64,000 nt of DNA from Lachnospiraceae bacterium 3-1 (GTDB taxonomy: Bacteria > Bacillota > Clostridia > Lachnospirales > Lachnospiraceae). How positions within the stretch are numbered: the first letter of the stretch is position 1; each line of letters starts with the position of its first letter. Below are positions 26,561-56,312 of this stretch, in pieces. Both the position numbers and the translations under genes were made by a program. The stretch spans positions 253,969-317,968 of the forward strand of contig KE159593.1 in the NCBI GenBank assembly GCA_000403255.2, given 5' to 3'. Under the pieces are notes generated by a model. The model worked only from the letters and a program-made list of their open reading frames with translations. It did not search any database and was not told the origin of the DNA.

Positions 26561-26634
26561 CGATGCGTGGCTCAGCTTGGTAGAGCGCTGCGTTCGGGAC
26601 GCAGAAGTCGCAGGTTCAAATCCTGTCGCATCGA
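26561..26634 (+). tRNA. tRNA-Pro (anticodon CGG)
   Basis: CGATGCG pairs with CGCATCG (acceptor stem). The anticodon stem CTGCG/CGCAG holds loop TTCGGGA with CGG. The T arm has GGTTCAAAT. Discriminator A is present and CCA is not encoded. The 74-nt gene ends just before the integrase of the mobile element, so its 3' half is the likely integration site. Confidence 0.95.
26610..26634 (+). other. Probable attachment site (attL) in tRNA 3' end
   Basis: Tyrosine integrases often use the T-arm and 3' end of tRNA genes. The integrase gene starts its stop codon side about 90 bp beyond this point. No second copy of the tRNA 3' sequence is seen in the window, so the other end lies to the right. Confidence 0.5.
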
Positions 26635-26722: not shown

Positions 26723-28006
26723 CTAACATTGTTTCTGGGAGCCCCCAGAGAACAATTCCCCCAGGGATTCTGCTGCAAGCTCATCCTGTTTCTTTAGGGC
26801 ATGTGCATAAATGTCCATTGTGGTGGATGTTTCGGAATGCCCAAGGCGGCTTGAAACGGTCTTTATGTCCACATTCTGGGCAATCAACAGCGTGGCAGAC
26901 GTGTGCCGCAAGCCATGCAGGGTGATTTCCGGCAGCTTGTCCGCATGGGTTTCGTTGTATATGCGGATAACTTTCTTGAACACTTTGTTTGGGGTGGATA
27001 TGTCCATCTGTTTCCCGTCATCTTGGATGAACAGGTAATTGTCCCCTTTCCAGTAAGTCCCTAGGGATAGGCGGTACTGCTGCTGTTCTTTCTTATGCCT
27101 GTGGATTAGCCCCATTGTGCTGGCCGGGAGCGTCACTGTCCGGTTGGAGGAGAAGGTCTTAGGGGGCTTCGTAATAATGCCCCCTTTGGTTCTGGCGGAT
27201 GCCTTGTTGACGGTGATGGCATGGCTTTGGAAATCTATGTCATCCCAAGTCAGGGCAATTAATTCACCGCGCCGGAACCCGCCAAAGACAGCTAGGTGGA
27301 ACAGCACCTTGAACTGCAGGGGGATTTCCCTTTCCTCATAATGCTTCTTGCTTTCGGAGCCGTCCTTCTTTGTGCGTCCCCAATGGGCAACGGTATAGGG
27401 CATTTCCAACTGGCTTAGGAAGGCCTTTGCCTGCTCCAGGGTAAAATGCTTCACGTCTGCCTGTTTTTCCACCTTAGGGGGCTTTACGCGCTGGCAGGGG
27501 TTGCTTTCTATTAGCTGCCAGTATACGGCCGTGTTCAGGCTGCTGCTAATGATTTGGTGGATGCGCTTAATCGTCCTTGCGCTGTAAGGCTTTTGTTTTC
27601 CGTTTTGGGTATAGCCATGTTCGGCAAGCTCATTGTATAGTTTGGTTAAGTGTAATGGCTGTATCTCTGACAGCCTTAAATGCCCGATTGCTGGCAGGAT
27701 GATGTTATTCAGGGAGTTTTCACACCGCTCAATGGAAGTGCGTTCCATTTGCTTTTCCGCATATTCAGAGAGCCATAATGCAGAATATTCCTGATAGGTC
27801 ATTTTTTCGCCTTTTAGGTATTTGCCGCTTTTTACCTTATCCTCGAAATCCATGACGAACCGTTCCAATGCCTTCTGGTTCTGCTTTTCTGTTCTGCTGG
27901 GGTCTGGCGTCCACGTGGCTGTTTCCAGTATCTGCTTGTCATGGATGTCCCTGCCGTTGCTCACGGTTACCTGGTAGCTTTTCCCCCTTTTCCTGATGCT
28001 TGCCAT
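26723..28006 (-). CDS. int: Tyrosine integrase of the mobile element
   Basis: A 427-residue phage/ICE integrase. It has an N-terminal arm-binding domain (MASIRKRGKSYQVTVSNG), a SAM-like core-binding domain (YQEYSALWLSEYAEKQM), and a catalytic domain with FRRGELIALTWDD (Arg), LHGLRHTSATLL (His-x-x-Arg), LGHSETSTT and the tyrosine in MDIYAHA. The start at 28006 follows AAGGAAAGGA; an upstream ATG at 28042 adds an atypical leader. It inserts the element at tRNA-Pro. Confidence 0.94.
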   Translation of the reverse strand: MASIRKRGKSYQVTVSNGRDIHDKQILETATWTPDPSRTEKQNQKALERFVMDFEDKVKSGKYLKGEKMTYQEYSALWLSEYAEKQMERTSIERCENSLNNIILPAIGHLRLSEIQPLHLTKLYNELAEHGYTQNGKQKPYSARTIKRIHQIISSSLNTAVYWQLIESNPCQRVKPPKVEKQADVKHFTLEQAKAFLSQLEMPYTVAHWGRTKKDGSESKKHYEEREIPLQFKVLFHLAVFGGFRRGELIALTWDDIDFQSHAITVNKASARTKGGIITKPPKTFSSNRTVTLPASTMGLIHRHKKEQQQYRLSLGTYWKGDNYLFIQDDGKQMDISTPNKVFKKVIRIYNETHADKLPEITLHGLRHTSATLLIAQNVDIKTVSSRLGHSETSTTMDIYAHALKKQDELAAESLGELFSGGSQKQC

Positions 28007-28160
28007 ATAAAAAATCAGTCCTTTCCTTAAAAATGGGTGCATTTTATAAAGGACTGTGATATACTGTTTTTGTTCAATATTGTATGTATATCATAATCCT
28101 TTATGGTATCTATCTGAAAGGCTCCGGTATTGGCCTACCGGGGCATTTTCAAATTTATGG

Positions 28161-36533: not shown

Positions 36534-36776
36534 CTCTCACCCCTCCCGTACCACACAGCGAACGGCAAAACCGAATCCGCGGGAAGCATTATTATGGTAA
36601 TCGACGCCCATTGGGTAACTATATATACTGTAGCTATTTGAGTTTTGACTAGCGACAGCTGACCACCAAAGACCAAATACGATGCGCGTGTTGACATAAC
36701 CATGGCTATGAACGTAATCGCCCGTACGGAGAAAGTTGAGAGGTATGTAGATAGTTTTACGAGCTTCTATTTCCAT
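36534..36776 (-). pseudogene. Variable FISUMP-type C-terminal cassette A
   Basis: A 79-codon fragment that matches the end of Fibrobacter succinogenes major paralogous domain (TIGR02145-like) proteins. It begins LNFLRTG, has a WWS core and ends RGFGFAVRCVVREG. The last 40 bp (36534-36573) are identical to cassettes B and C, while the middle differs. The first residues (MEIEARKTIYIP) are not a signal peptide and no N-terminal domain is present. It is either a silent cassette or a relic. Confidence 0.65.
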
Positions 36777-36929: not shown

Positions 36930-37289
36930 ATGGCGGACTATGTAACAACCCATAAGGACGATAGCAGAATAGCTGTATGTTTCTACAACGAGAACGATAA
37001 ACCCTTTTCTATCGGCGAGAAAATGAACGAAATCAATGCATATGCCTACATGAATGGCTATAACTGGGATGCTTTTTTCAAGTATTACCTTGCCCAAAAT
37101 GCACCCGAACTTTTGGAAGGCCTTATAGGCGATCCGGAGGCCGGTTGCTACATCGCCTACTATGCACTGTCGGATGAAAATGAGAAAAAGGCCAAACGTT
37201 TTGCTGAGATGATTGTTTCCCTGATTGAAAATGAACAGGAATTGTATGATATCATACGCGAACATGGCAATGGGATTGAGTGGAACTAA
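36930..37289 (+). CDS. Imm51-family immunity protein (orphan)
   Basis: A 119-residue acidic protein. NAYAYMNGYNWDAFFKYYL, PEAGCYIAYY and the C-terminal GNGIEW match the Imm51 family of contact-dependent toxin immunity proteins. No toxin gene is next to it, so it could protect against toxins from neighbours. GGAG precedes the ATG, with its own promoter. Confidence 0.65.
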   Translation: MADYVTTHKDDSRIAVCFYNENDKPFSIGEKMNEINAYAYMNGYNWDAFFKYYLAQNAPELLEGLIGDPEAGCYIAYYALSDENEKKAKRFAEMIVSLIENEQELYDIIREHGNGIEWN

Positions 37290-38092: not shown

Positions 38093-38314
38093 CTCTCACC
38101 CCTCCCGTACCACACAGCGAACGGCAAAACCGTAGCCACGGGGGTCTGTATATTCGGGGATAACATATTCCGTATAAGTAGTTAAATTGTGCGCCTGGCT
38201 ATTGGTACGAACTGCGTCTGACCACCAGTGACCAATCGTAACACGCGCGTTAATATAGCCATCCGAAAGACTATAATAGCCCGTACGGAGAAAGTCAAAC
38301 GAAACCATTCCCAC
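38093..38314 (-). pseudogene. Variable FISUMP-type C-terminal cassette B
   Basis: A 72-codon fragment: FDFLRTGYYS at the start, GHWWSD in the core, RGYGFAVRCVVREG at the end. Its last 40 bp (38093-38132) are identical to those of cassette A. It is divergent from the surface-protein operon promoter about 40 bp away and lacks an N-terminal domain. Confidence 0.65.
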
Positions 38315-38351
38315 AATTAAGCTAATCTATTTTTCTATTTGCGATATAAAG

Positions 38352-38369
38352 TATGCTATAATCATAACC
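38352..38369 (+). promoter_or_regulatory. Promoter element of the surface-protein operon
   Basis: TATGCTATAATCATAACC precedes an ATG, with TATAAT as the -10 box. The same block with ATGAAYGAG occurs at 49571-49597 before cassette C. The very short distance to the ATG suggests a nearly leaderless transcript. Confidence 0.6.
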
Positions 38370-38486
38370 ATGAACGAGTTCCAGGAGGCAATGATTGCCA
38401 CAGATGCCCCATATTCACAGCCTGTGGGCATGACTTTTCAGCAGCATCTGTCGGATTTTGTACAAATAAACTGGGGGGGGCTATAA
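38370..38486 (+). CDS. 38-residue leader ORF ending in a G8 tract
   Basis: MNEFQEAMIATDAPYSQPVG and 18 more residues end with a TAA immediately followed by the ATG of the next gene. A run of eight G (38473-38480) lies in its last codons and doubles as the RBS of the next gene. Both frames are the same, so only the TAA separates them. Expression is inferred from the promoter placed right at its start. Confidence 0.5.
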   Translation: MNEFQEAMIATDAPYSQPVGMTFQQHLSDFVQINWGGL

Positions 38487-39035
38487 ATGAGGCGACCCCG
38501 ATGGTTCTATACTACTCTTGGCATATTCGGTATTATTGTCCTTGCTGTGGCAATATGGGCGGTAGTTACTCTAATACATTCTTCCAATAATGGGGGTACT
38601 ACAACTTCGCTAGTTTTGGATGACAATACAAACAATGATGGCGCTGAGAACGAAGCAGTAAATAATTATGTGGCTCAACTCCAAAAGATATATGATGCAA
38701 ACTCGGATAATGGCTCTGATAACGCTGCCGGTATGGAGAAAGTTACTCAAGCCGTAGATAATGCCGTAAAATCAAAACAAGGGGAAGCACAGGCGGGTTC
38801 AATCCGAATTGCGGCGATGGTGCTTGCATATCAAAATTTAAATTATGATAAGGTTATAAGTCTTACTAATGAAATAAACCCTGATGAGTTAAGCTTGCAA
38901 GATCAGATAACATATTATGCAACTCTGTATGCCGTTTACGACAGTAATGGAGATACAGAAAAAGCCCAGGAGGCGTTTAGGATTGAAGGAGAAAAAATCC
39001 AGCAACTGTGCAGTAAACAGGAGTGTATGCAATGA
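38487..39035 (+). CDS. Membrane-anchored helical-repeat protein
   Basis: A 182-residue protein with a basic start (MRRPRWFYTTLG), one membrane helix (IFGIIVLAVAIWAVVTLI) and an exported part with TPR-like helices. Its style (small anchored partner before a giant surface protein) is typical of Saccharibacteria (TM7). Its stop overlaps the next start as ATGA, so the two are co-translated. Confidence 0.7.
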   Translation: MRRPRWFYTTLGIFGIIVLAVAIWAVVTLIHSSNNGGTTTSLVLDDNTNNDGAENEAVNNYVAQLQKIYDANSDNGSDNAAGMEKVTQAVDNAVKSKQGEAQAGSIRIAAMVLAYQNLNYDKVISLTNEINPDELSLQDQITYYATLYAVYDSNGDTEKAQEAFRIEGEKIQQLCSKQECMQ

Positions 39036-42000
39036 GAGTGTCTAATGTAAGAAAAACTATTTTATATGGCGTATTGGGTACAATTTTTTGCTCGTTGGCT
39101 GTTTTGAGCGGCATAATGTTCTTCTCCCATGGCGTATCGGCCGGCAATGTAACCGGCGCGAATGGGGGTAAACCTCCAGCAAACACCCCATGCGGAGGAT
39201 TGAATGGCCATTCTACTTTCTGTGGAGAATTTGGTGTATCTTGGCGATACTATACGCTCTCTCAGGTCTCTTCTATTGCCAACTACAGTGGGCCGGCAAG
39301 TACTTGTGCCGAAGAGGATGTCGAGGGGATTTGGATTTTAGCGTATGAGTGGGTGAATGGGGATGGTTCCTTCCAAGGGAAACAAGTACTCGATCGCCCC
39401 AATAAGAATGTACATGTAGCCCAAGTCCAACCTCCGTATTCAACTGGTTGGTATAAGTTTGTTGGACCGACTGTTTTGGCTGATACTAAAGACTGGACTG
39501 ACGCAAAAGAAGCTTATGAGTATTATAAATCAGCTTTTGATGGAAATACATCTTGGGAAAATACGACTTGGTTTTGCGGTAATGAAGATCCTGGTCCAAG
39601 GACGGGTGCCATAAAAGCCAATTCCGGTATTAACGTCTCAGGTGTAAGTGGCGATAAAACAGGGGCTGATGTAGGCTCAAAAAATTACGATAATTCGCTT
39701 GAAAAGACAGCGGCGATGACGGTTTCCGTACAGACTTCGATTCCACAAATATCCGGTCAAATATGGCATAATCAGTACTATAAAAATACGAGTGACGGTT
39801 GGGCAGGTGTTAAGCAAAAAGCAAAGAAATATAAAGGGATTACTCTTGATTTATATTGGGATGTCAAAGGTGGTAAGTCAGGTGATAAGTATGATGCCTG
39901 TGATGGCAAATGGACTTGCGATACACTGTGGGCAATTCCTGCCAAGGAAACTACGGACAAACAGGAAAAGGTAGGGAGTGTCAACTATACCGTTAATGCT
40001 GGTGATGAATACTGCCATACCATGACAGTAGAGCCTACCAAGTTTAAGTTTAATAATAGCGAGGGGGTGACAGATGAGGCTGGCCGCGCGCACACCAGGG
40101 CTTGTGTTAACGTCAGCCATGTCGACAAACCTAAGCCACCTACCGACGAATTTAAGGCCAACTCCAGTGTTGAAGTTCCCAATGCCTCTTCGCAGCTCGG
40201 CGGATATGATCCGGGCAAGCAGACTTCCGACTGGGACAAAGCCGTTGGTCTCAAAGTCAGTACCGATAGCGCAGAGTTAACATTTACGTTTTCGCATAAT
40301 ATGGGCTTCGATATCAAGGATACTAACCATAATATTTGGCGCAAGTGGAATTCCTGTGCGTACACTGTAGGCTCCGGGGAGAACATAACTTGTGTCGGTG
40401 ACTGGGAATTCGTAGGTAAGACTACCGAATTGAGATATGATCTAAGCAATGAGGGTGGGGGAACCGTCACGCCGGGCACCGCAGGCGGAAATGCGCAGTA
40501 TAAAGCTGGCATAGACAAAGACAGGCAAAATCAGGACGAGGAAGTTTCGAAGGAAACCTTTACCATCTCCGGCATGGAACCCGGCAAAACCTACAAAGTT
40601 TGTCACAAGATTACATACACTCCAAAGAGCTATACTACGCCAATTACCGAGAAATTAATTTGGACTGGTCCGTGGTCAATTGGCCCGCAGTGGATTTACG
40701 GAGAGCCACAAGCCAATGGCGACTCTGAGGATTCCGAAGCCTGTATCGAGATTACTCGCCCGGAGAATCCGCCTGAAGGTGGTGATCCGGATCCATACGG
40801 CCCGAAGAACAGTGGTAGCAGCAATGCCGATGTGATGTTTGCGGGTGAGCAGACGAATATCGGTTGGAAAGTCGAAGCCAAGTCGGTTCCAACTCGCCGG
40901 GTAACGGATTATTCTGCGGTCGGTTTTGTGGTGCGGGATGATGTAGCGAGTGCTGCCGCCATGAACAGTGGCATGGCGCATCAGCCGAGTGACCCATGTG
41001 CCTACTTCGGATCCAAAGCCGTGCTGGTTGGTTTTGGCGGCACTACCTGTGCTGAGTTTAGTGGCGATGGCCTTAGTGTGGCAGAAAACACCGATGGTCT
41101 GTCCGGGATCAAGGTTGAGAAAATTCCAAGTTCAAGCGGTGCGTTTACAAAGCAGATTAATATCGCCGTACCCGATAACGTTGGCGCCAAGTATTGTAAC
41201 TCTTACGGTTATAAATGGGGTTATTGGTATGGGGTCGTGAAGGGTGAGACTGCAGAAAATCTTACCGATGACACAGCAACTTGGACGCACGTCAATGGCA
41301 AAGATTATTGGACCAACTATAGCCCAGCTTGCCGTACTATTGCCAAGAAACCCAACTTTGCGATTTGGAATGGTAGCATCTTCTCGGGCGGAGGGATTGT
41401 CTCTTCAACTGCTCCGCGCCACAATGATGCGAATAGTGGTCAGCCTACAAAATTGAATGACGACGGCAATAAAACTACTTACGGTTCTTGGGCGGAAAAT
41501 CTTGCAGTTGCCGGCAGCAATATTAGTCGCTTTGCCTCAAGCGGGGCTTATGGCGCCGGTCTTCCTGGTCTAGTCAATCCAAGTGGAGGCGGTAATGATT
41601 GGAAAATGGCTTGGTTGACTATCTCCAACGATGGATTAAAGTCAAGCGGCAGTGCACTCGGAAACTCGGGGATTAACTATAACTCTTCTTACGATACGCG
41701 ACTCTCGGCATATCTCAAAGGTAGCGCTACGAACGATGCGTCGAATCAATCAGCGACGACCTATTCCGGTGCTAGCGGTGTAGCTAGTACGCAAATCCTC
41801 TACTTCAACCCAGGCGGGACTAACGGCACTCTAACAATCAATGGCAATGTAACCCTAGATAGCGCCAAGAAAGAGAATATCTATGAGTTGCCGCAGGTGG
41901 TAATCTACGTTGATGGTAATATCGCAATCGACCCAAGCGTAACTCGACTTGATGCCTGGCTAATTGCTACCGGTGATATTGATACTTGTAGGGGTTGGCA

Positions 42001-42292
42001 AGACAATACTACCGAGACACGGAGCTTGAACCGTAATGCCAATGCCACTTGTGATAATCAGCTACAGATCAATGGTCCAGTGATTGCAAACTCAGTCAAA
42101 CTGCATCGCACATTTGGGGCGGATAATCTCGTTAGCTTTACTGGTTCGCACGGTGACCGGTCCAACAAGAACGTTTCTAGTGAAGTATTTAACCTCAGCG
42201 CACTGACTTATCTTTGGTCCTTTGCACAAGCTGGAAGATACCAGTCGAGTTATACGGATGTTTACTCCAGGGAGCTGGCTCCGAGATATTAA
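39032..42292 (+). CDS. Giant Saccharibacteria-like surface protein
   Basis: A 1086-residue exported protein. A signal anchor (ILYGVLGTIFCSLAVLSGIMFF) is followed by a cysteine-containing ectodomain with the SWRYYTL segment, repeated cysteine-bearing modules (DACDGKWTC, CVGDWEF, CMRTIAKK-like pairs), and a C-terminal beta-helix-like part (GTLTINGNVTL, VVIYVDGNIAID). It ends SRELAPRY, an ending I associate with candidate phyla radiation surface proteins. No LPXTG motif is seen. AGGAG lies before the ATG. Donor assignment is from resemblance and was not tested. Confidence 0.7.
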   Translation: MRVSNVRKTILYGVLGTIFCSLAVLSGIMFFSHGVSAGNVTGANGGKPPANTPCGGLNGHSTFCGEFGVSWRYYTLSQVSSIANYSGPASTCAEEDVEGIWILAYEWVNGDGSFQGKQVLDRPNKNVHVAQVQPPYSTGWYKFVGPTVLADTKDWTDAKEAYEYYKSAFDGNTSWENTTWFCGNEDPGPRTGAIKANSGINVSGVSGDKTGADVGSKNYDNSLEKTAAMTVSVQTSIPQISGQIWHNQYYKNTSDGWAGVKQKAKKYKGITLDLYWDVKGGKSGDKYDACDGKWTCDTLWAIPAKETTDKQEKVGSVNYTVNAGDEYCHTMTVEPTKFKFNNSEGVTDEAGRAHTRACVNVSHVDKPKPPTDEFKANSSVEVPNASSQLGGYDPGKQTSDWDKAVGLKVSTDSAELTFTFSHNMGFDIKDTNHNIWRKWNSCAYTVGSGENITCVGDWEFVGKTTELRYDLSNEGGGTVTPGTAGGNAQYKAGIDKDRQNQDEEVSKETFTISGMEPGKTYKVCHKITYTPKSYTTPITEKLIWTGPWSIGPQWIYGEPQANGDSEDSEACIEITRPENPPEGGDPDPYGPKNSGSSNADVMFAGEQTNIGWKVEAKSVPTRRVTDYSAVGFVVRDDVASAAAMNSGMAHQPSDPCAYFGSKAVLVGFGGTTCAEFSGDGLSVAENTDGLSGIKVEKIPSSSGAFTKQINIAVPDNVGAKYCNSYGYKWGYWYGVVKGETAENLTDDTATWTHVNGKDYWTNYSPACRTIAKKPNFAIWNGSIFSGGGIVSSTAPRHNDANSGQPTKLNDDGNKTTYGSWAENLAVAGSNISRFASSGAYGAGLPGLVNPSGGGNDWKMAWLTISNDGLKSSGSALGNSGINYNSSYDTRLSAYLKGSATNDASNQSATTYSGASGVASTQILYFNPGGTNGTLTINGNVTLDSAKKENIYELPQVVIYVDGNIAIDPSVTRLDAWLIATGDIDTCRGWQDNTTETRSLNRNANATCDNQLQINGPVIANSVKLHRTFGADNLVSFTGSHGDRSNKNVSSEVFNLSALTYLWSFAQAGRYQSSYTDVYSRELAPRY

Positions 42293-42319: not shown

Positions 42320-42631
42320 CTAAAAAATGTTCTCATAATCCTGCAGGTCATGGAAGATCCCGAGGACGTGCGCTTCGCTGTCTGCGATTTTATACAGCAT
42401 AAAATATTTATGCCGCCTGAAATGGATTGTCCGGTATCCTATAGCCCGCAGACGGGGATGGTCACACAACTTCAAACTGCCGGCCACAGTGGAAAGCCTT
42501 GCCGTGGTTTCCTCCATATCATCCGCGACCCTGGACGCTGCCTGGTCACTCTGGAGTTCATAAATCAGATAATGGAGGATTTTTCTAACATGTTCTTGTG
42601 CTTCCGCTGAAAAAATAACTTCATATACCAT
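42320..42631 (-). CDS. ParE/RelE-family toxin
   Basis: A 103-residue protein with the RelE/ParE fold (YEVIFSAEAQEHVRKILHYL, then GYRTIHFRRHKYFMLYKI and VLGIFHDLQDYE). It overlaps the antitoxin gene by 11 bp. Either ribosome-dependent mRNA cleavage or gyrase inhibition is possible; the LxxL-R-Y-x pattern fits ParE. Confidence 0.85.
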   Translation of the reverse strand: MVYEVIFSAEAQEHVRKILHYLIYELQSDQAASRVADDMEETTARLSTVAGSLKLCDHPRLRAIGYRTIHFRRHKYFMLYKIADSEAHVLGIFHDLQDYENIF

Positions 42632-42970: not shown

Positions 42971-43543
42971 TCAGAACAATGTCATCTTAAGTATCGCCTC
43001 ATCCCGCTCATCCTGCCTGATGCCGAGGTAAAGCTTGGTAGTCTCGTAACTGCTGTGGTTATAGATATCTACAACCACAGCCAGTGACACGTCCCCATCT
43101 ATGATTGCGTGGTAGCCCCAGGTCTTCCGCAAAGAATGGCAGGCAATCTTGCCCATAATCCCCAGCTCCACTACTGCGGCATGGATAATCCGCCACGCCT
43201 GCACCCGGCTGATTGCTTTTGGCTCTTTACGGTTATTGGCGAAGATATAATCGCCTCGGCGGTGGAGGTAACACTGCTTGAGTGCGCCCAGTAGCTGTGG
43301 GTTTAGAGCAATGGTACGCTTTTTCTTAGTCTTCTTTTCTGTCACGGTAATATGGGTACGGAATGCCTGTCTTTCTTCGTCATACACATCCGACCATTTA
43401 AGCCGGAGCAGGTCGCTAATCCGAAGAACGGTATATGTCCCCATCAGCACGAGCGTATAATTACGCAACTGCCCTTTCTTCAAAAAATAATTCGCAAGTT
43501 CCTTTAATTGTTTCTTGTCCCTGATTGGTTCTGTTGCTGCCAT
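42971..43543 (-). CDS. Minimal tyrosine recombinase
   Basis: A 190-residue catalytic-domain-only recombinase. Active-site residues are TVLRISDLLRLKWSD (Arg), CHSLRKTWGYH (His-x-x-Arg, His) and the tyrosine in TTKLYLGI. The N-terminal core-binding domain is reduced to a short helix pair (KKQLKELANYFLKKGQL). Such short enzymes occur on Firmicute elements; the substrate may be the GTAAC-rich sequences to its right. Confidence 0.88.
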   Translation of the reverse strand: MAATEPIRDKKQLKELANYFLKKGQLRNYTLVLMGTYTVLRISDLLRLKWSDVYDEERQAFRTHITVTEKKTKKKRTIALNPQLLGALKQCYLHRRGDYIFANNRKEPKAISRVQAWRIIHAAVVELGIMGKIACHSLRKTWGYHAIIDGDVSLAVVVDIYNHSSYETTKLYLGIRQDERDEAILKMTLF

Positions 43544-44382: not shown

Positions 44383-44442
44383 TGGGAGGGGCGGATGTTA
44401 AAAAAATACAGCAAAAATAAAAATTGTCAGGAGGAAGTATTC

Positions 44443-45345
44443 ATGAAGCAAAAGTTATTAGCAACCTTTCTTATAGCTGCTTTAGTGTTAGGGGGTACAG
44501 CTTGTGGGACGGGAAATCCGGGGCAGACAAACAGCGGTAACAGTAAAAATGACAGCCAGTCCACCGTTGAGACCTCAGAGTCCATGAACCAGAAAACAGA
44601 AAAAACGGAATCCGGGGCAGATACAGAAAGTGATCTAGACCGCCAGACTTATACTGTAGCTGACATCAATGATGGTAAGCTAGGCGATAAAATTACCTTT
44701 AACTCGATCACCGATGTTGCTGAGACTGGCAACGAGGTCGATTTTACTTCGGCACAGGAAGCTGGCGCCGATGGTCTCGCAGTTAACCCACATGGTAACT
44801 GGGAAGGTGGTAATGTTGAGGTTGAAGATGGCAAGGAATACGTTGTTCGTCTTTACGTCCACAACAACAGCCCGAAGGGTATCGCTGGTACCTCTACTGG
44901 CACCAAGGTCGCAATTAGCGGTATTGGCGCTAGCAAGACCAACGCAAAGGGCAAACAAGAAGTTGAAGTAAACGGCTTTATTGAGTCGGATAACGCAACT
45001 CCAAAAGAATACTGGGATTACGTTCGCTTTTATAGCAACACTTCATTCCACCTAGACTACGTTTATGGTTCAGCAATGATCTATAACCGTGGTGCAACTG
45101 GTACGACTGATCCAATCTCGGCCGCTGAAATTGAGAGCAAATCCGGCGATGAGCTGAAAGCTCTTCTTAACAGCCACACTGTTACTGGTAAGCCACTTGG
45201 CGACGACATTGTCCTCAAGACCAAGGTTGACGGTACTTTGGATGGTCAATTGATTGGGTTTGATGCCCTTGATGGTAATGTGCCGGGGTGCTATGAGTAC
45301 TCTAGCTACATTACGATTCGTGTGAAGGCGGTCTATGATAAATAA
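44443..45345 (+). CDS. Lipoprotein with shared surface domain
   Basis: A 300-residue exported lipoprotein. The leader (MKQKLLATFLIAALVLGGTA then Cys) has a lipobox and is of Firmicute type. A Ser/Thr/Glu-rich linker (about residues 25-70) leads to a beta-rich domain with ITFNSITD, VEVEDGKEYVVRLYVHNNSP, FIESDNATPKEYWDYVRFYS and PGCYEYSSYITIRVKAVYDK. The same domain occurs at 45389 and 52267. AGGAGGA precedes the ATG at 44443. Confidence 0.82.
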   Translation: MKQKLLATFLIAALVLGGTACGTGNPGQTNSGNSKNDSQSTVETSESMNQKTEKTESGADTESDLDRQTYTVADINDGKLGDKITFNSITDVAETGNEVDFTSAQEAGADGLAVNPHGNWEGGNVEVEDGKEYVVRLYVHNNSPKGIAGTSTGTKVAISGIGASKTNAKGKQEVEVNGFIESDNATPKEYWDYVRFYSNTSFHLDYVYGSAMIYNRGATGTTDPISAAEIESKSGDELKALLNSHTVTGKPLGDDIVLKTKVDGTLDGQLIGFDALDGNVPGCYEYSSYITIRVKAVYDK

Positions 45346-45388: not shown

Positions 45389-46177
45389 GTGAATAGAAAA
45401 CAGAAAAATTGGGTAGTGGTTGGAATGATAGCATTAGCGGTCATACTGCTTGCCGTTAGCAATAAAGCTCTCGCTTGGGGTCCGACGGACCGTCCAACTT
45501 ATACGATGGCGGCGCCAGCCGATCACGCTACTTTTAACTCAACCACGGACAGTTCTTCAATTGGCGATGAGCGCGATTTCGTGAAGATTGTTGAGAAAGG
45601 TGTCGGCGGCACTTATTCGAGCAAAATTAAACTTGAGCCGGGTAAGGAATATGATGTTTATATCTATTTCCATAATGACGCTTCGGCGACTTATAACGAC
45701 AAAGACCATAATTATGCTGGGGTCGCGACGGATACTCGCCTAGTTTCTTCCTTCCCACTGGAACTCGCAGCTGGCGAGGAAGGCGCAGTGAGCGGGGTGA
45801 TTTCCTGGGCATCACTGGCTGATCGCGATAATGTACAAAAAGTTTGGGATGAAGCTTGGGTGACAGCGAGCGAAAACATGACCTTGCATTATGTGACGGG
45901 CTCGGCCAAGATTTATAACGGCGGCAAAGCTAATGGTAATGTCCTGTCGGCGAATCTTTTCTCGGAGCAGGGTACGTATCTTGGGTACGATGATTTGGAT
46001 GGTATTGTGCCGGGATGCGATGAATATTCTGGTCATGTGAATTATACAATTCAGACTGAAAGGATGAATAAATCAATCACAAAACCTTCTCTTATGATGG
46101 TGATTGCAGCTATAGTGGTATCGCTCTTGATAGTTGCAGCGGTCATTATTTTTCGTAGAAAACGTAAAGGACTATAA
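45389..46177 (+). CDS. Cell-surface protein with shared domain and C-terminal anchor
   Basis: A 262-residue protein with a signal peptide (VVVGMIALAVILLAVSNKALA). The shared domain follows in its Saccharibacteria-like form (RPTYTMAAPADHATFNSTTD, IGDERDFVKI, LEPGKEYDVYIYFHND, PGCDEYSGHVNYTI). A C-terminal membrane helix and RRKRK stop-transfer end complete it. GGGAGGG precedes the GTG/ATG start. It lies 43 bp after the lipoprotein gene. Confidence 0.78.
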   Translation: MNRKQKNWVVVGMIALAVILLAVSNKALAWGPTDRPTYTMAAPADHATFNSTTDSSSIGDERDFVKIVEKGVGGTYSSKIKLEPGKEYDVYIYFHNDASATYNDKDHNYAGVATDTRLVSSFPLELAAGEEGAVSGVISWASLADRDNVQKVWDEAWVTASENMTLHYVTGSAKIYNGGKANGNVLSANLFSEQGTYLGYDDLDGIVPGCDEYSGHVNYTIQTERMNKSITKPSLMMVIAAIVVSLLIVAAVIIFRRKRKGL

Positions 46178-46382
46178 AAATGTTGTGAGTCGCTTAGGGT
46201 GATACTGCTTACGAAAACGCAGGCAGGAACGGATTATGTTTTAAGAATAGGAAAACCATACTCAACGGATATTGGTGGCAGTATACCAAAGAGCTTATAA
46301 TTGCGCCTTTTACTAAGTGATAGTACAATCGGAACATTGGTCTGCCAAGACCAAGTATTTTAACAGTCAGGAGGGAACTATC

Positions 46383-47540
46383 ATGAGAACAAGGAAAGTA
46401 ACTTTGGCATTGCTGACAGTGATAAGTTTTATGATTCTGTTTATGGCTTGTCCGCCGGAGGCAGAAGCCGCAAGTAAGCTAAAAACAATTACTGTCACAA
46501 AAATCGACCAAAAAACTGCCAAAAAAGTCCACAAGCAACTTTTGAAAGGAAAAGCGTTTAACCTACGGTTTAAGGGAGGTGAAAAAAACTTTTATAAGCA
46601 ATTCCAAAAGCTGAGCAAGAAGGTTGCGAACTGTACGGATGAAGGGTTTAATATTTTTCCCATTTGTATGCAGGATGCAGGTTATTATGGTACCGCCGGC
46701 TTTGACCAGCAAGGTAACCAGCCGAGAAGATCAGGCGGGTATACGAGTTTCCTTGTAAAGAGCGGCTACTGTCAGGAGTATATTTATGGCATAAAATTTG
46801 CCAAGCGTGAGTACGAGGCTTTGAAGATGTATGTCGATAAGATTCTCGCAAAATCGAGATCAACGCTAAAAACGCTTGAGGATGACACATCGACGTGGCT
46901 CTTAAGCGAATCGGCAAAAAGGACATATATCAAGAAACTGAATCATGTCATTTCTGAATATGAAGAATTGCAACAGTACTTAAAAAGAACAAAACTTCGC
47001 GACCTGCCCGGGACTATGAAGGCTAGGATTCTATTAGAGATAGGTGGGAGCGTTGATGCTAATGACTGGGTAAAAACCTCAATGAAGCATAAGGATATGG
47101 GTTTTAAACGTAAAAATAGTTTTAAAGACCTATATAACAGAAAAGCTTACGGCCGAGAGCTTTATATAGCGCATACTCTTTGTAAGATATGTGCAGTATA
47201 TAACATTGGCGATTTTAGTTGTGTAAAAGAGTCGTCACAACCGAATGGCGTTATGGTGTGGGTTAAAATGAAAACTCGCAGCGGAAAGACACGGTACGGA
47301 GTTTACAGGTACGGTACGCTTAGGTCTACTCGCAGACAAATTAGCTATGAAACAAAAGAAGCTCTTGTACGGTATCGCAAACGTCGTAAAAGCGATAGGG
47401 TGATAGGGCAAATTGCCAAAGCTAAGACAATAAGACAGCAAATTGCCGTAGATGGTATCAATGTTAGCTTCGGCACTACATCTGGCGATGCGGTTAACTT
47501 GACGATTTATGAATTTAATCTCGATAGGTCGGAATGGTAA
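46383..47540 (+). CDS. Secreted protein, paralogue 1
   Basis: A 385-residue exported protein with a signal peptide ending AEA-like (FMACPPEAEAASKL). The mature part has ITVTKIDQKTAKKVHKQLLKGKAFNLRF, a basic repeat-like KQFQKLSKKVA, and CTDEGFNIFPICM. Its C-terminal LYNRKAYG...CKICAVY loosely recalls the Lachnospiraceae transglutaminase-like layout, without a clear His-Asp pair. It is about half identical to the gene at 48311. AGGAGGG precedes the ATG. Confidence 0.7.
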   Translation: MRTRKVTLALLTVISFMILFMACPPEAEAASKLKTITVTKIDQKTAKKVHKQLLKGKAFNLRFKGGEKNFYKQFQKLSKKVANCTDEGFNIFPICMQDAGYYGTAGFDQQGNQPRRSGGYTSFLVKSGYCQEYIYGIKFAKREYEALKMYVDKILAKSRSTLKTLEDDTSTWLLSESAKRTYIKKLNHVISEYEELQQYLKRTKLRDLPGTMKARILLEIGGSVDANDWVKTSMKHKDMGFKRKNSFKDLYNRKAYGRELYIAHTLCKICAVYNIGDFSCVKESSQPNGVMVWVKMKTRSGKTRYGVYRYGTLRSTRRQISYETKEALVRYRKRRKSDRVIGQIAKAKTIRQQIAVDGINVSFGTTSGDAVNLTIYEFNLDRSEW

Positions 47541-47644: not shown

Positions 47645-48300
47645 AATTCTGCATTTAAGCATCTGACATACTCTCCTATAATGAGATTAGCTTGAACCCA
47701 AATAAACCCTGCTTTTGCAGGTAATGTAACATTATCTCAATAAGGTTACAATTTGATAACATAACAAGGCGGTAAAAAACCGAGTCTCCGGAATTGTTAA
47801 CGGAAGAAAACAAAAAATCGCCCGCAGGAACAGAAAAACGACAAAAAAAAAGGGGTAAACAAAACAAGAAACCGATAAAAAAGTAACAGAATTGAGAATG
47901 TGTTACATCCGACCTGCGAAGGCGGATTTTTACATATTATATAAGCAGGGAAACTATTTGATAAGGAAACCTATAACCATGTAACGCTTCTGGACAAAAT
48001 TTAGTAACTGCGCGCAAGCGCGCATACGTTACATTGTATTGGTACAGTGTTTGGGAGACTGGAAAAAAGCTATCCCCTATGTTTTTGGTATTTAAGTTTT
48101 CTTGGCTGCTGTTGTTTGATTTTTGGTTTCTGATTTTTTCGGGTGATAATTGTATTTTGCTTGCGGAAATCTCGTCAAGGCTGAATATGACGGGCTGTCC
48201 GCCCGACCTTGACTAAATTTCCGGCGCAAAATACCTTACGTGTGTTGGGCGTATAAAATTGATATGCATTGAATGTGACTACTAACGAGGCGAGACGAGG
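47645..48300. other. Non-coding GTAAC-rich stretch with composite element copy 2
   Basis: About 650 bp with no credible gene. GTAAC/GTTAC occurs at least seven times between 47720 and 48035 (for example 47883, 47902, 47977, 48003, 48025). A GCGCGCAAGCGCGC palindrome lies near 48008. It leads to the second paralogue. Confidence 0.5.
47883..47932 (+). repeat. Composite element copy 2: GTAACA-N12-TGTTAC plus hairpin
   Basis: GTAACA (47883-47888), 12 bp, TGTTAC (47901-47906), then ATCCGACC...GGCGGAT and T5. It matches copy 1 in order, spacing and hairpin while the spacer and loop differ. Confidence 0.7.
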
Positions 48301-48310
48301 AGGGATTACC

Positions 48311-49471
48311 ATGAAGGTGATGAGAAAGTTTTGTAGCAGATTGTTGATGGTTTTTGGATTGGCGATGGCGATTGGGCTGCTTTCTCCGCAAATGGAAGTG
48401 AATGCGAAGACCCCGACCATTACGGTCAAGAAGGTCGATCAAAATACCGCCAAAAAAGTTCACAAGCAGTTGATGAAGGGCAAAGCCTTCAAGTTGCGCA
48501 TCAAAGGAGGTGAGGAAAATTTCATAAAGCAATTCCAAAAGCTGAGCAAGAAGGTGGCGACCTGTACGGATGAAGGGTTTAATATTTTCCCGATTTGTAT
48601 GGAAACCTCAATGTATTTTGGTTATAATGGTGGCCGTAACCCGAAGACATCCGGAGGGTATACCAGTTTTAATGTGACCAAGGGCGACTGTCAGGAATAT
48701 ATCTACGGTATTAAGTTCGCGAGACGTGAATACAAGGATTTTAAAGCCTACGTCGATAAAGCTTTGAAGGAATCAGAGTATTTGCTGAGCGTAGTAAATA
48801 CTGACAAGGTATATGTCGACGAGGTGAATTACAAAAGTCGCGCGGCGTTGACGAAGGATGTAGAAAAAACAATTGCAAACCTTAGAGAGCTGAGCAAATA
48901 CCTCAAAAAGACCAAATTCCGGAATCTTTCGGGTGCGATGAAAGCGAGAGTGGTGCTGGAAGTTGGAGGAAGAGAGTGGGGAAAACCAGCGATGTGTATG
49001 AGCTGGGATAAACCAAAGTTTAATACGTCATTTAAAGCTCTATATCAAAGAAAGGCTCATGGTCATATCCGAAAATTTACCGATGTAGCCTGCAAGACTT
49101 GTGCAGTGTTTGATATAGGGGAATACGATCAAATTAAGGGGAGGATGGGCACCGGTCCTGACGTGGATGAGGCAGTAAGGGTTAAATTGAAGACGTCGTC
49201 CGGTAAGGTCCGTTATGCCGTTGTGGAAGTGGGGGAGTTTTGCCCACATAACGATTATGTAGGATTTGATACATGGAGGGAAGATACGACCTATCGTTGT
49301 TGGGATCAAAAGAACCATAGGACGGTCAAGAAGATCAAAAAAACGCAACAGTTGCGGAGCATAACATTAATTAAAAGACAAAAGGCCGTATATGAATTAT
49401 CTCCTGATGGCATAAATTTGGGTAAGGCACTGGTGATTTACGGCTTGGATGTGCCGAAGAGCGAATGGTAA
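48311..49471 (+). CDS. Secreted protein, paralogue 2
   Basis: A 386-residue exported protein with a signal peptide (SRLLMVFGLAMAIGLLSPQM, then EVNAK). The mature part shares VHKQLMKGKAFKLRIKGGEE, FQKLSKKVATCTDEGFNIFP, GGYTSF, CQEYIYGIKFARREY and the late CKTCAVFDIGEY with paralogue 1. Strong differences lie in the middle and end. GAGGAGGG precedes the ATG. Function unknown; conserved cysteines suggest disulfides. Confidence 0.7.
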   Translation: MKVMRKFCSRLLMVFGLAMAIGLLSPQMEVNAKTPTITVKKVDQNTAKKVHKQLMKGKAFKLRIKGGEENFIKQFQKLSKKVATCTDEGFNIFPICMETSMYFGYNGGRNPKTSGGYTSFNVTKGDCQEYIYGIKFARREYKDFKAYVDKALKESEYLLSVVNTDKVYVDEVNYKSRAALTKDVEKTIANLRELSKYLKKTKFRNLSGAMKARVVLEVGGREWGKPAMCMSWDKPKFNTSFKALYQRKAHGHIRKFTDVACKTCAVFDIGEYDQIKGRMGTGPDVDEAVRVKLKTSSGKVRYAVVEVGEFCPHNDYVGFDTWREDTTYRCWDQKNHRTVKKIKKTQQLRSITLIKRQKAVYELSPDGINLGKALVIYGLDVPKSEW

Positions 49472-49538: not shown

Positions 49539-49570
49539 GCTATTCATGGTACTTTGAACTTCTGATTTGG

Positions 49571-49813
49571 TATGCTATAATCATAACCATGAATGAGGAG
49601 AGAACCTCTCAACTTTCTCCGTACGGGCTATTATGATCGCTCATACGGCAACATCTATGTACGAGTTCTACATGGCTACTGGTGGTCAAATGTAGTTGGT
49701 TCCGCTACTAATAGCTACGGCCTAGTTACGTACCCAACAAGTATTGGTCTTAAGAATCATCATTACCGCGGCTACGGTTTTGCCGTTCGCTGTGTGGTAC
49801 GGGAGGGGTGAGA
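49571..49813 (+). pseudogene. Promoter plus variable FISUMP-type cassette C
   Basis: TATGCTATAATCATAACC with ATGAATGAG (as at 38352) is joined almost directly to a cassette. The cassette has LNFLRTGYYD, a GYWWSN core and RGYGFAVRCVVREG. The promoter's ATG (49589) is out of frame with the cassette; an ATG at 49593 is in frame. Its last 39 bp are identical to cassettes A and B but inverted relative to them. A long N-terminal section is missing, so it looks like a deletion product or a donor cassette. Confidence 0.6.
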
Positions 49814-49896
49814 AAAATAAACGCTGTAAGAGAGCTTTGTACCTAATTGTAGGATATGATTTACGAAGACAGAGATTTAAAAAGGGGGTGCATTTT

Positions 49897-52173: not shown

Positions 52174-52266
52174 ATCAGGGTATAAGTGATGCTGTGAAAT
52201 CTATATTTTGACTTATGACAGCAGTTATGACATAATAATAGAAAGATCCATGTGGAGGGATTATAT

Positions 52267-54447
52267 ATGGGAGAGACTAAGAACAACGCACCCACAGCCG
52301 TCGAAAAGATTAAAGCTCGCTTGACTCAAGTTCGTAAATCAGAGGCAGATATGCACGAATTAGCCCTGCTACTTGAAAGAGAAAGTGGGAATCATGTTGA
52401 TGTGGTGCGTCTCAATAGGTTGGCATTGGGCAATCGGGCGAATGATTCTGTTAAATTAGAAGAGTTATATCAAACATTTTACAGTGCATACGTCATAAGA
52501 CTGTTGGAAAAATACGTGAATATCATCCGTGACCGTCTTCTACTTTTTGCGGTATATGGCATTTTGCCAGGATATAAGAATTTAAATGTAGGAGAACGTC
52601 GCGAAAAATATGCAGAAGATAATCCAAATGTCAAATTTGAGAGAGCTAGAACTACCGTATCCGGGTGGAGCGATCCAAACAGCAGGCTTCCAGATTTTGA
52701 GGATAAAATAATAAAAGCGCTAGCTAAACAACTGGATACAGAAACAGATGGTCTCAAAAAGAAACTTGGGTTATCAATGGCCGTTTTTGATGAGCTGGAG
52801 AAAAAATTTCCGAATGGTCTCCCTGAAGAATTGCCATCGGACTTCCCCGAATGTATTGCACTTAATTTGGAGGATAATAAAAACACCGTTGAGGCTACTG
52901 TCGTTTCGGAAAATGACAAGGCCATTGTTGAACCACTAAACATTCCAGCGGATAATAAAAATTGCAACAAGCCTGCATCTGTTGTTGATGATGATACATC
53001 TGAAGGTATTAATCCCGAAGAAGACCACCCCTCAGACAACCCGGAGAATGATGAAGCTTCTGCTGAGCCGTTAGGAGGTTTAGATGCGGATAAAACAACC
53101 AATGAGCCTACAACCGACCCTGATGATAAGTCATCGGGTGCACATCCTTTATGCGTATTTATAAAGAAGCATCCATTTTTATTTGTTATAGTCGTCTTGC
53201 TAGTACTGGCGCTAATAGTGTTTTTTATATATAACATCTGTGGATCTGCACAAAGAGACACGCATGATATTTCTTCTGAACCTGAAAGCATCACGGAAGA
53301 ACCAGAAGATATAAGTGAAATTGATGATTCTGAAAGCCCCATAAACGAGCGTATTTCGCCTGACTGGGGAGACAGTATTGGAGGGCGCACCAGTTACACG
53401 GCTGGCCAACTGGAACGAAACATCCTCGCTAATCAGGTTGTTTTCAACTCAAAAGGTCAAGAAAATGATCCCGGGGGATGCAAAGCCATTTATCCGGGCG
53501 ATGAAAAAAATTTCGTTAAAGTTTGGTTGCAAAATACCGGCTCAGATAACAATGATTTGTGGGAAAGTGAAAATATTACTGTAGAAAATGGAAAGTCGTA
53601 TATGATCCGGATTGATATCAATAATGATAACCCTAAGAAGCACATTGTGGCAAAAGATACAAAAGTAGCCTTGAGCATCCCATCATATTCGGATACGAAG
53701 ATTCCAGTACGTGGGTATATTGAATCGAGCAATGCAGAGCCGTCAAAAATCTGGGATGGAGTAGTGTTCAGCAGTGCAGAAGACAAATCTTTCCATTTGA
53801 GGTTTAGACCAAATACCGCTACGCTTTACAATAAATTTACAGGTGAAGCCAACGGAATGGAGTTAAGTGATGACATTGTTTTAAAGGCTACGGATGGCGG
53901 AACGTTGATCGGTTATAATGAGCTTAACGGTGAGATTCCCGGTGGCCCACAATACGGCGGTAGAGTCGAAGCATGGGTTGATGTGATTTATGATAAATAC
54001 TCTGTTGCAACACAAGTTCGTAAACTTGGCGCAACTGAATGGGGCAAATCTGTTGATGCAGAAATTGGTGACCAAGTCGAGTTCCAGATCGAATATAACA
54101 ACACCAGTACTGAGACGCAGACTAACGTGATGATTCGCGATATTCTGCCAGGCAACCTCAAATACGTGGCTGGTACGACCAAGCTTTACAATTACAGCAC
54201 TAAGGGTCAATGGGCAACTTTGACTCCGGATGGTGATATCGTAACCCGTGGCGTGAATATCCGTAGTTATCTTGGCAGTCCTGATGGTGAAGGCGGTGGT
54301 AATGCATTTGTCCGCTTCACTGCGGAAGTAGTTGATACCGATCTTGCCTATGGCGAAAACTTCATCTACAATTGGGGCCAGGTGACAGTTGATAACGATT
54401 TAATAGAAAACCCATCAGTTGTAATAGTCCAAAAGCCTGAACAATAA
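52267..54447 (+). CDS. Type II-like membrane protein with shared domain and DUF11-like repeat
   Basis: A 726-residue protein with three parts. The cytoplasmic N-terminus (about 1-300) is helical then acidic, with no known motif (GWSDPNSRLPDFEDKIIKAL). One membrane helix (HPFLFVIVVLLVLALIVFFIY) follows near residue 305. The outer part has the shared domain (NITVENGKSYMIRIDINNDN, YIESSNAEPSKIWDGVVFSS, GYNELNGEIPGGPQYGG) and a DUF11-like repeat (GDQVEFQIEYNNTS, MIRDILPGNLKYVAGTTKLY). Outer-domain signals could pass to the inner domain. GGAGGG precedes the ATG at 52267. Confidence 0.75.
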   Translation: MGETKNNAPTAVEKIKARLTQVRKSEADMHELALLLERESGNHVDVVRLNRLALGNRANDSVKLEELYQTFYSAYVIRLLEKYVNIIRDRLLLFAVYGILPGYKNLNVGERREKYAEDNPNVKFERARTTVSGWSDPNSRLPDFEDKIIKALAKQLDTETDGLKKKLGLSMAVFDELEKKFPNGLPEELPSDFPECIALNLEDNKNTVEATVVSENDKAIVEPLNIPADNKNCNKPASVVDDDTSEGINPEEDHPSDNPENDEASAEPLGGLDADKTTNEPTTDPDDKSSGAHPLCVFIKKHPFLFVIVVLLVLALIVFFIYNICGSAQRDTHDISSEPESITEEPEDISEIDDSESPINERISPDWGDSIGGRTSYTAGQLERNILANQVVFNSKGQENDPGGCKAIYPGDEKNFVKVWLQNTGSDNNDLWESENITVENGKSYMIRIDINNDNPKKHIVAKDTKVALSIPSYSDTKIPVRGYIESSNAEPSKIWDGVVFSSAEDKSFHLRFRPNTATLYNKFTGEANGMELSDDIVLKATDGGTLIGYNELNGEIPGGPQYGGRVEAWVDVIYDKYSVATQVRKLGATEWGKSVDAEIGDQVEFQIEYNNTSTETQTNVMIRDILPGNLKYVAGTTKLYNYSTKGQWATLTPDGDIVTRGVNIRSYLGSPDGEGGGNAFVRFTAEVVDTDLAYGENFIYNWGQVTVDNDLIENPSVVIVQKPEQ

Positions 54448-56089: not shown

Positions 56090-56287
56090 TTGGAACCACC
56101 CAAAAAAATAATTACCAGGATACTCGAGTTTGCATTCATGCTGGCGCTCAGCGCCTTTCTCATCAATACCGCCGCATACTTGATTTTGGAAGTTTGGCCG
56201 ATACTGCTTGCTATCGCCATTGTTGTCATAGTTGTTATTATGATCTACCGCATCAGGAAACACAAGCATGATTTGGGACAATGGTAG
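56090..56287 (+). CDS. Small membrane protein
   Basis: A 65-residue protein with two hydrophobic segments (ILEFAFMLALSAFLI and ILLAIAIVVIVVIMIY) and a basic end. The start is TTG after GAGGAGGG. It lies between the methyltransferase and the transfer ATPase and may anchor that ATPase. Confidence 0.6.
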   Translation: MEPPKKIITRILEFAFMLALSAFLINTAAYLILEVWPILLAIAIVVIVVIMIYRIRKHKHDLGQW

Positions 56288-56312
56288 AAAGAAAAGAAAG
56301 GAGTGGGCATTT

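Follow-up and report, generated by a model that had tools for sequence, protein, structure and literature searches.

In this study, we describe a gene, P0002, that very probably originated from Saccharibacteria, very small bacteria that grow as epibionts on other bacteria, and now lies in an integrative element of a Lachnospiraceae genome. The gene was found in a stretch of 64,000 nucleotides from Lachnospiraceae bacterium 3-1 (C23:253969-317968; hereafter the window), on a 519-kb contig of a 5.08-Mb genome in 27 contigs. The genome is assigned to Lachnospiraceae by kinship, and a Petralouisia muris genome (G015), which holds one of the related loci described below, is marked as belonging to the same genus. 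Our explanation of the data as a whole, which we consider probable, is that the element captured Saccharibacterial surface genes that have been kept by selection and act in cell-cell contact. An earlier note on this DNA had proposed a transfer from Saccharibacteria into a Firmicute mobile element. For P0002 the proposal is supported, because the distribution of its homologs, their tree, their synteny with pilus loci and the codon use of the gene all point to a Saccharibacterial source.

The two open reading frames (ORFs) on which that proposal was built, one for an anchored protein of 182 residues and one for a protein of 1086 residues ending in SRELAPRY, are both in place and intact. The smaller, P0001 (38487-39035, plus strand), appears from its ORF and hydropathy to be membrane-anchored by a single N-terminal helix, and it overlaps the start of P0002 (39023-42292, plus strand). 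P0002 is 1086 residues long from an ATG at 39032, or 1089 residues from a GTG, in which case the overlap between the two genes is 13 bases. Its N-terminus is hydrophobic and, by hydropathy, probably of the export type, and a conserved C-terminal domain (41288-42289) places it in a family of Saccharibacterial pilus loci. Neither P0001 nor P0002 matched any Pfam or NCBIfam family above the cut-off. The leader in front of them (38351-38486, plus strand) has a 28-nt repeat with a TATAAT-like box, a second copy of which is at 49570-49597, and a 38-residue ORF (38370-38486) whose stop abuts the start of P0001. A promoter scan was no better than chance, with 9 sites found and 8.2 expected.

The family of P0002 is widespread in the Saccharibacteria group, by which we mean genomes drawn from the order or the family of a metagenome-assembled genome (MAG) titled Saccharibacteria (G145); the two draws overlap and include the MAG itself. 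Within the order, 54 of 148 genomes had a homolog (E<=0.001), and within the family 156 of 246 did (E<=1e-10). In contrast, only 3 of 145 genomes around the window genome had matches, and these were the window genome itself, P. muris, where the match came as two pieces, and G023, which belong to a single genus and have the same element. When a profile of the C-terminal domain from 33 aligned rows was used, matches were obtained in 2 of 348 Lachnospiraceae, the window genome and G548, and in 3 of 398 Bacillota, the window genome and two weak partial matches (E 7.4e-5 and 2.5e-4). P0002 has the features of the family: a C-terminal domain of about 330 residues, recovered by hmmsearch, tree and alignment, and an ending of the ELPPRF/ELAPRY kind, which resembles that of most of the 33 rows. 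Its nearest relative outside the element is a protein of 1014 residues in the Saccharibacteria MAG (G145:C28), with 38% identity over residues 439-1089 (E 1.2e-72); the next-best relative followed at E 7.7e-31.

A position among Firmicutes, which the earlier note had named as evidence that would speak against transfer, was not found for P0002. When 61 domains were analysed by maximum likelihood with midpoint rooting, the four copies from the element formed one clade (100/100), with the G145:C28 protein as its sister (100/100) and G289 next (97/88), and this clade nested inside the Saccharibacterial rows. The corresponding forks had supports of 100/100, 100/99 and 94/81 in a 51-row tree, made from the 61-row set by removing 11 rows and adding the piece from G548. 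The codon use of P0002 still looks like that of Saccharibacteria and not like that of its surroundings. In this comparison, also suggested by the earlier note, the distance of P0002 to four housekeeping genes of G145 was 0.64, within the range of 200 resamples (mean 0.46, maximum 0.81), whereas its distances to seven chromosomal genes of the window (1.06; resampling maximum 0.66) and to eight element genes (0.95; maximum 0.79) fell outside the respective ranges. P0001 was too short for this measure, with distances of 1.4-1.7 to every gene set.

The genomic context of the homologs was taken from 20 Saccharibacterial regions, which represent the best matches of the 148-genome search and not a random sample (19 genomes, G283 twice). 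The homolog adjoins the gene series pilM-pilN-pilO-pilB-pilT-pilC in 12 of the 20 regions and genes with prepilin motifs in 3 more; in a representative pilus locus the Pfam families PilM_2 (2.8e-39) and T2SSE were recognized. P0002 itself does not have this adjacency, which is also missing in 8 of the 20 regions and is thus not strictly defining. The type IV pili of Saccharibacteria take part in binding to the host (PMC12206443, PMC10633639): deletion of the locus-three minor pilin PilX2 reduced host binding in N. lyticus TM7x (PMC12206443), and most pilus genes were essential in S. epibionticum (PMC10633639).

A small ORF of 161-350 residues lies upstream of the homolog and ends at most 64 bases from the start of its frame in all 18 regions compared; L063 and L044, the contig of which starts just before the homolog, were left out, and in L058 the frame concerned is a first, weaker P0002 homolog. 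By eye, most of these upstream proteins have a membrane helix; the one in L046 has none, and those in L050 and L054 begin a long way upstream. Two additional loci were inspected for this protein: L119 has one of 113 residues, and L111 has none. P0001 is the equivalent of the small upstream protein by position and topology only. Its Saccharibacterial ancestry would be based on position; its size also matches. When a hidden Markov model of P0001 was compared with the upstream proteins, the best E value was 0.0031 (L055) and profile comparisons gave probabilities of at most 4%, and homology was not accepted.

The arrangement around P0002 was also found elsewhere. A scan of genome contigs gave 24 stretches fitting the pattern, which came down to three loci: L002 (CANOTH010000036.1), an 8.9-kb contig binned in the Saccharibacteria MAG; L003, in a Lachnospiraceae MAG; and L004, in P. 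muris strain NM01_1-7b on a contig with a title coverage of 219. Each has the P0001-P0002 pair and right-hand neighbours like those in the window, and the main blocks are identical to the window at 92% (L002, 5880 bases), 91% (L004, 5879 bases) and 87% (L003, 7680 bases) of nucleotides. The sequence of L003 follows that of the window without a break from 36.3 to 43.9 kb and spans both junctions of the pair. L004 is collinear over 38.1-43.9 kb and bridges the right one; L002 is collinear from 38.1 kb on. To the left of 38.1 kb, L004 and L002 jump to window positions 36.3-36.6 kb and have one of the variable cassettes described below where the window and L003 have two; the part of L004 farther left had no match in the window at 30-64 kb. 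According to the earlier note, failure to span the junctions at about 38.3 and 42.3 kb would tell against the transfer, and as far as this was checked, on assembled contigs, such a failure was not seen. L002 and L004 are 97.1% identical across 8720 bases, and L002 is probably a contig of the Lachnospiraceae element that was misbinned. Four stretches on viral contigs fitted the pattern and none encodes a relative, and there were no matches on plasmids. From the kinship with P. muris, we infer a gut origin for the window genome and the Saccharibacteria MAG.

A homolog of P0002 was also found in G548, a Lachnospiraceae genome of another genus, on a contig of 72.9 kb. Nearby are homologs of the window's coupling protein (53% identity), MT-A70 protein (60%), amidoligase (68%) and GGCT-like protein (54%). 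In the 51-row tree, the G548 P0002 grouped with G362 and G334 of the Saccharibacteria group (100/99), far from the window clade. We take these as two independent captures by related elements, as judged from gene content and tree position. The protein upstream of the G548 copy (L129 7821-9694) has 150 residues that are 77% identical to a neighbouring secreted protein with a different end, which looks like an Ig-like domain of the Lachnospiraceae type. Surface proteins of the epibiont type and of the Lachnospiraceae type may have exchanged domains here.

Judging from the sequences, the transfer is wider than the P0001-P0002 pair, since three window genes with a domain that we call A4 are also of Saccharibacterial type. 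They encode a lipoprotein-like protein (44395-45345, plus strand; A4 domain 44647-45342), a surface-type protein with a C-terminal membrane helix (45389-46177, plus strand; A4 domain 45485-46087) and a membrane protein of 731 residues with DUF11 (52252-54447, plus strand; A4 domain 53392-53985). Among 121 genomes sampled from the Saccharibacterial family, 89 encode the domain; among 195 genomes around the window genome, 7 do, namely 5 of its genus (itself included), G050 and G812. In a tree of 19 rows, the A4 domain of the 45389 gene grouped with G240 of the Saccharibacteria group (100/99), and those of the 44395 and 52252 genes with one domain of G145, one of G050 and those of genus members (100/99). 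The interval of 38352-42292 given in the earlier note is thus too narrow; Saccharibacteria-type sequence is scattered over about 36.5-54.4 kb, with other genes interspersed. The A4-domain proteins in G050:C89 (L154) and G812:C95 (L155), one from the same family and one from the same order as the window genome, are possible additional captures.

The copies of P0002 and P0001 are under purifying selection. The ratio of nonsynonymous to synonymous substitution rates (dN/dS) was 0.11-0.15 for P0002 (3 pairs among the window, L002 and L003), 0.03-0.08 for its C-terminal domain (6 pairs) and 0.12-0.19 for P0001 (5 pairs; one additional pair had no synonymous change), values that are silent on the host in which selection acts. 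The synonymous rate (dS) of P0002 was 0.21-0.65, compared to 0.004-0.12 for the neighbouring gene at 46317-47537 (dN/dS 0.15-0.53), so that the P0002 alleles are either older than this neighbour or were exchanged. The alleles of P0002 are mosaics. At 39.0-39.3 kb the window is 70% identical to L003 and 97% to L004; at 40.2-40.5 kb it is 69% identical to L004, and L003 and L004 share 93%; at 41.7-42.3 kb it is 94-96% identical to the other three copies. Mosaicism with a conserved end would be expected if the protein is exposed and diversifies, and together with purifying selection it suggests a working surface protein. On this basis, we consider a selected surface function of P0002 to be likely.

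Three units of about 200 bp lie beside these genes in the window, with strongly different cores and with end sequences that are almost the same at the nucleotide level. These cassettes are c36 (36534-36745, minus strand), a C-terminal piece of a Fib_succ_major-like domain without gene body; c38 (38093-38310, minus strand), divergent from the P0001 leader; and c49 (49604-49814, plus strand), inverted relative to c38 and nearly alike in its core in the window, L003 and L004. They weakly match the last 60 residues of Fib_succ_major (PF09603), with a best E of 0.0038, in 4 of 5 members, below the Pfam cut-off. At the c38 site, the window, L003 and L004 are 57-62% identical in the core, 98-100% in the 48-base end and 86-95% in the right flank; the window core is 57-59% identical to those of L002, L003 and L004, with 98-100% at the 3' end. 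Across related elements, the cores vary at the c36 and c38 sites but not at c49. Over the compared segment, only two residues separate the c36 core of L003 from the lone cassette of L004, which could have arisen by crossover of c36 with c38 in an arrangement like that of L003. The idea that cassette cores hop between positions is weakened, as the single cassette of L004 and L002 is explicable by such a crossover.

The cassette profile gave 26 matches in 7 of 61 genomes around the window genome, and 6 of these 7 belong to its genus; the matching frames measured 67-116 residues, and two had internal stops. In the Saccharibacterial family, 29 of the 121 genomes searched also had matches (E<=0.01). 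The MAG G145 had 48 matches, the best of which (1.5e-36) is the cassette on L002. After retraining of the profile on G145's own cassettes, 113 units were counted in 888 kb of this MAG (loci L044, L167-L186 and L189-L228), 103 of them in frames shorter than 130 residues and none in frames of at least 300. Three cassettes directly follow G145's own P0002 homolog, so cassettes occur beside a P0002 gene in a Saccharibacterium as well. On searches of the Saccharibacterial family and of genomes around the window genome, the element cassettes likely came from Saccharibacteria, though less firmly than P0002. In 65 aligned G145 cassettes, AAY was the commonest codon in many variable columns and the end was nearly invariant in nucleotides. 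They look like a very large silent-cassette repertoire; a full-length target was not found in the 888 kb. A plain retroelement origin of the element cassettes was considered and is not favoured: by eye, third codon positions vary too, and the 13 matches to RVT_1 in the window genome (G000) are all outside the window's contig. Beside one reverse transcriptase of G145 (L198), a cassette-like template repeat was not found. A reverse transcriptase-like frame in L227, on contig C22 of the same MAG, has its own template-like repeat, and this retroelement-like region looks foreign.

These genes and cassettes lie in an integrative element of about 50 kb in tRNA-Pro. Two direct repeats of 34 bp, of which 33 are identical, are 49.9 kb apart: attL (26601-26634, plus strand) inside the 3' end of the tRNA gene, and attR beyond the window at C23:330427-330460 (76459-76492 in the window frame). 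The first adjoins the element integrase, a tyrosine recombinase (26723-28042, minus strand) with XerA/XerD-type matches below the cut-off (best 1.7e-21). Because a TraG/VirD4-like coupling protein (56268-58484, plus strand; T4SS-DNA_transf 1.5e-9) and a replication-relaxation protein (58481-59464, plus strand; Replic_Relax 5.7e-37) are present, the element is probably mobilizable. Between c38 and c49 there is a second, short tyrosine recombinase of 190 residues (42971-43543, minus strand; Phage_integrase 1.4e-24 over residues 10-173), which could invert or swap the 11-kb segment between these inverted cassettes. Among the other genes, 36930-37289 encodes an Imm51 immunity protein (1e-26) and 42320-42631 a ParE toxin (5.9e-9). 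The genes at 46317-47540 and 48269-49471, with no Pfam or NCBIfam matches, have a common 207-nt repeat at 78% identity.

We suggest that the element captured the P0002 gene, P0001 as its upstream partner by position, and the A4-domain genes from a Saccharibacterium, and that it acquired with them, probably from the same donor, variable cassettes like those abundant in one Saccharibacteria MAG. The Lachnospiraceae cell would then export P0002 and retain it on its surface with the help of P0001, without the Saccharibacterial pilus machine. P0002 is kept by selection, presumably acting in the Lachnospiraceae carrier, and some of its parts vary through mosaicism of alleles. Its most likely role would be in contact between cells, where it would replace the surface protein of the epibiont itself. 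One option is mimicry, with P0002 competing against the attachment of Saccharibacteria to the carrier, a reading that we hold only tentatively; another is an adhesin that aids contact for transfer of the element. A broader version, in which a family of Lachnospiraceae elements repeatedly acquires pilus-locus genes and cassettes from Saccharibacteria living on or next to the carriers, displays them as mimics that block or tune attachment and so forms an anti-epibiont system, seems rather unlikely; if true, it would identify Lachnospiraceae as the hosts of Saccharibacteria in the gut.

Several observations weigh against this explanation. The donor was not found, the closest Saccharibacterial relative of P0002 being just 38% identical, and the cassette matches of G145 other than the one on L002 had E values of 8.3e-9 or weaker. 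The resemblance to candidate-phyla proteins that the earlier note saw in both genes holds for P0002 by its distribution, but sequence homology of P0001 to Saccharibacterial proteins was undetectable. Five of the 20 Saccharibacterial regions (L044, L048, L053, L055 and L060) have no pilus gene beside the homolog. The pil genes were found neither in the window nor in C23:316000-335000, so that P0002 could serve in a pilus only with machinery supplied by the carrier. In P. muris a frameshift divides the P0002 frame (L004 6001-9256; ORFs of 351 and 736 residues), and in G548 a frameshift puts the end out of frame (L129 9675-12493); P0002 is thus not needed everywhere. A full-length copy, L002, sits in a Saccharibacteria MAG, and to read this as misbinning is unproved. 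Structure prediction for the C-terminal 462 residues of P0002, from three near-identical rows, had a mean predicted local distance difference test score of 31 and was unusable.

The position of L002 bears on two other explanations. Mixtures of Saccharibacterial and Lachnospiraceae DNA do occur, as this contig shows, and the arrangements of the window and L004 differ to the left of c38, so the locus could be an assembly or binning chimera. However, the window lies in a long contig of a 27-contig assembly, L003 and L004 are collinear with it, and the latter comes from a well-covered contig; with this gene order found again in P. muris and in a Lachnospiraceae MAG, a chimera is hardly credible. 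Alternatively, the element itself may move between Saccharibacteria and Lachnospiraceae, with its genes selected in the Saccharibacterium and carried as passengers in Lachnospiraceae. The near identity of L002 to P. muris, the broken P0002 copies in P. muris and G548, the retained Saccharibacteria-like codon use and the inability of dN/dS to tell the host of selection would all agree with this. Nevertheless, L002 is perhaps misbinned, with nearly half of it being Saccharibacteria-like, and its MAG also includes the foreign-looking contig C22; we regard such a shared element as unlikely.

That 2 of the 5 copies (window, L002, L003, L004 and G548) are frameshifted might also indicate neutral hitch-hiking of captured DNA that has no function in either host. 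This is quite improbable in the light of dN/dS values of 0.03-0.19 between copies, frames of 1087-1089 residues intact from GTG in the window, L002 and L003, and a second element with P0002 from another source. The two weak partial matches in Bacillota might be taken to mean that P0002 is a native pilus-associated protein of Clostridia, which Saccharibacteria acquired from Firmicutes. The family is nevertheless deep in the Saccharibacterial tree, in 156 of 246 genomes and often beside pilus genes, and is nearly absent from 348 Lachnospiraceae and 398 Bacillota, which makes this direction of transfer very remote.

That elements of Lachnospiraceae contain surface genes from two different Saccharibacterial branches shows DNA flow between both groups. 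To our knowledge, gut Saccharibacteria have no established host. The finding yields a prediction for such a host, for which the P. muris strain offers a test, and the genes may point to hosts of such epibionts. It would also be a case of genes leaving an epibiont lineage for another phylum and remaining under selection there.

Integrative and mobilizable or conjugative elements in tRNA genes are known in Clostridia. The window element is like them in its repeats in tRNA-Pro, its tyrosine integrase, and its coupling and replication-relaxation proteins, and differs in a cargo with Saccharibacterial surface genes. The cassettes resemble Fib_succ_major and the targets of diversity-generating retroelements in their weak match to the end of the former and in the AAY columns of G145, but they have no gene body, and a reverse transcriptase was not found on the window's contig. 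P0002 may be likened to PilX1 and PilX2 of Nanosynbacter lyticus TM7x, which belong to Saccharibacterial pilus loci and have expanded C-terminal parts in the form of extra domains, without a predicted prepilin-peptidase signal (PMC12206443); homologs of P0002 are beside pil or prepilin genes in 15 of 20 regions. This likeness is one of description, and the searched part of the element is without a pilus gene. In titles and the starts of abstracts of the open-licence literature, no description was found of a transfer of Saccharibacterial surface genes to Firmicutes. The excerpts of a study on exchange between phyla deal mostly with genes received by groundwater Patescibacteria and do not describe surface genes in a Firmicute element (PMC12455944). 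Like ours, the cases in that study are transfers between phyla with Patescibacteria taking part, and in one of them Patescibacteria were the inferred donor of an ABC transporter gene to Nanoarchaeota (PMC12455944).

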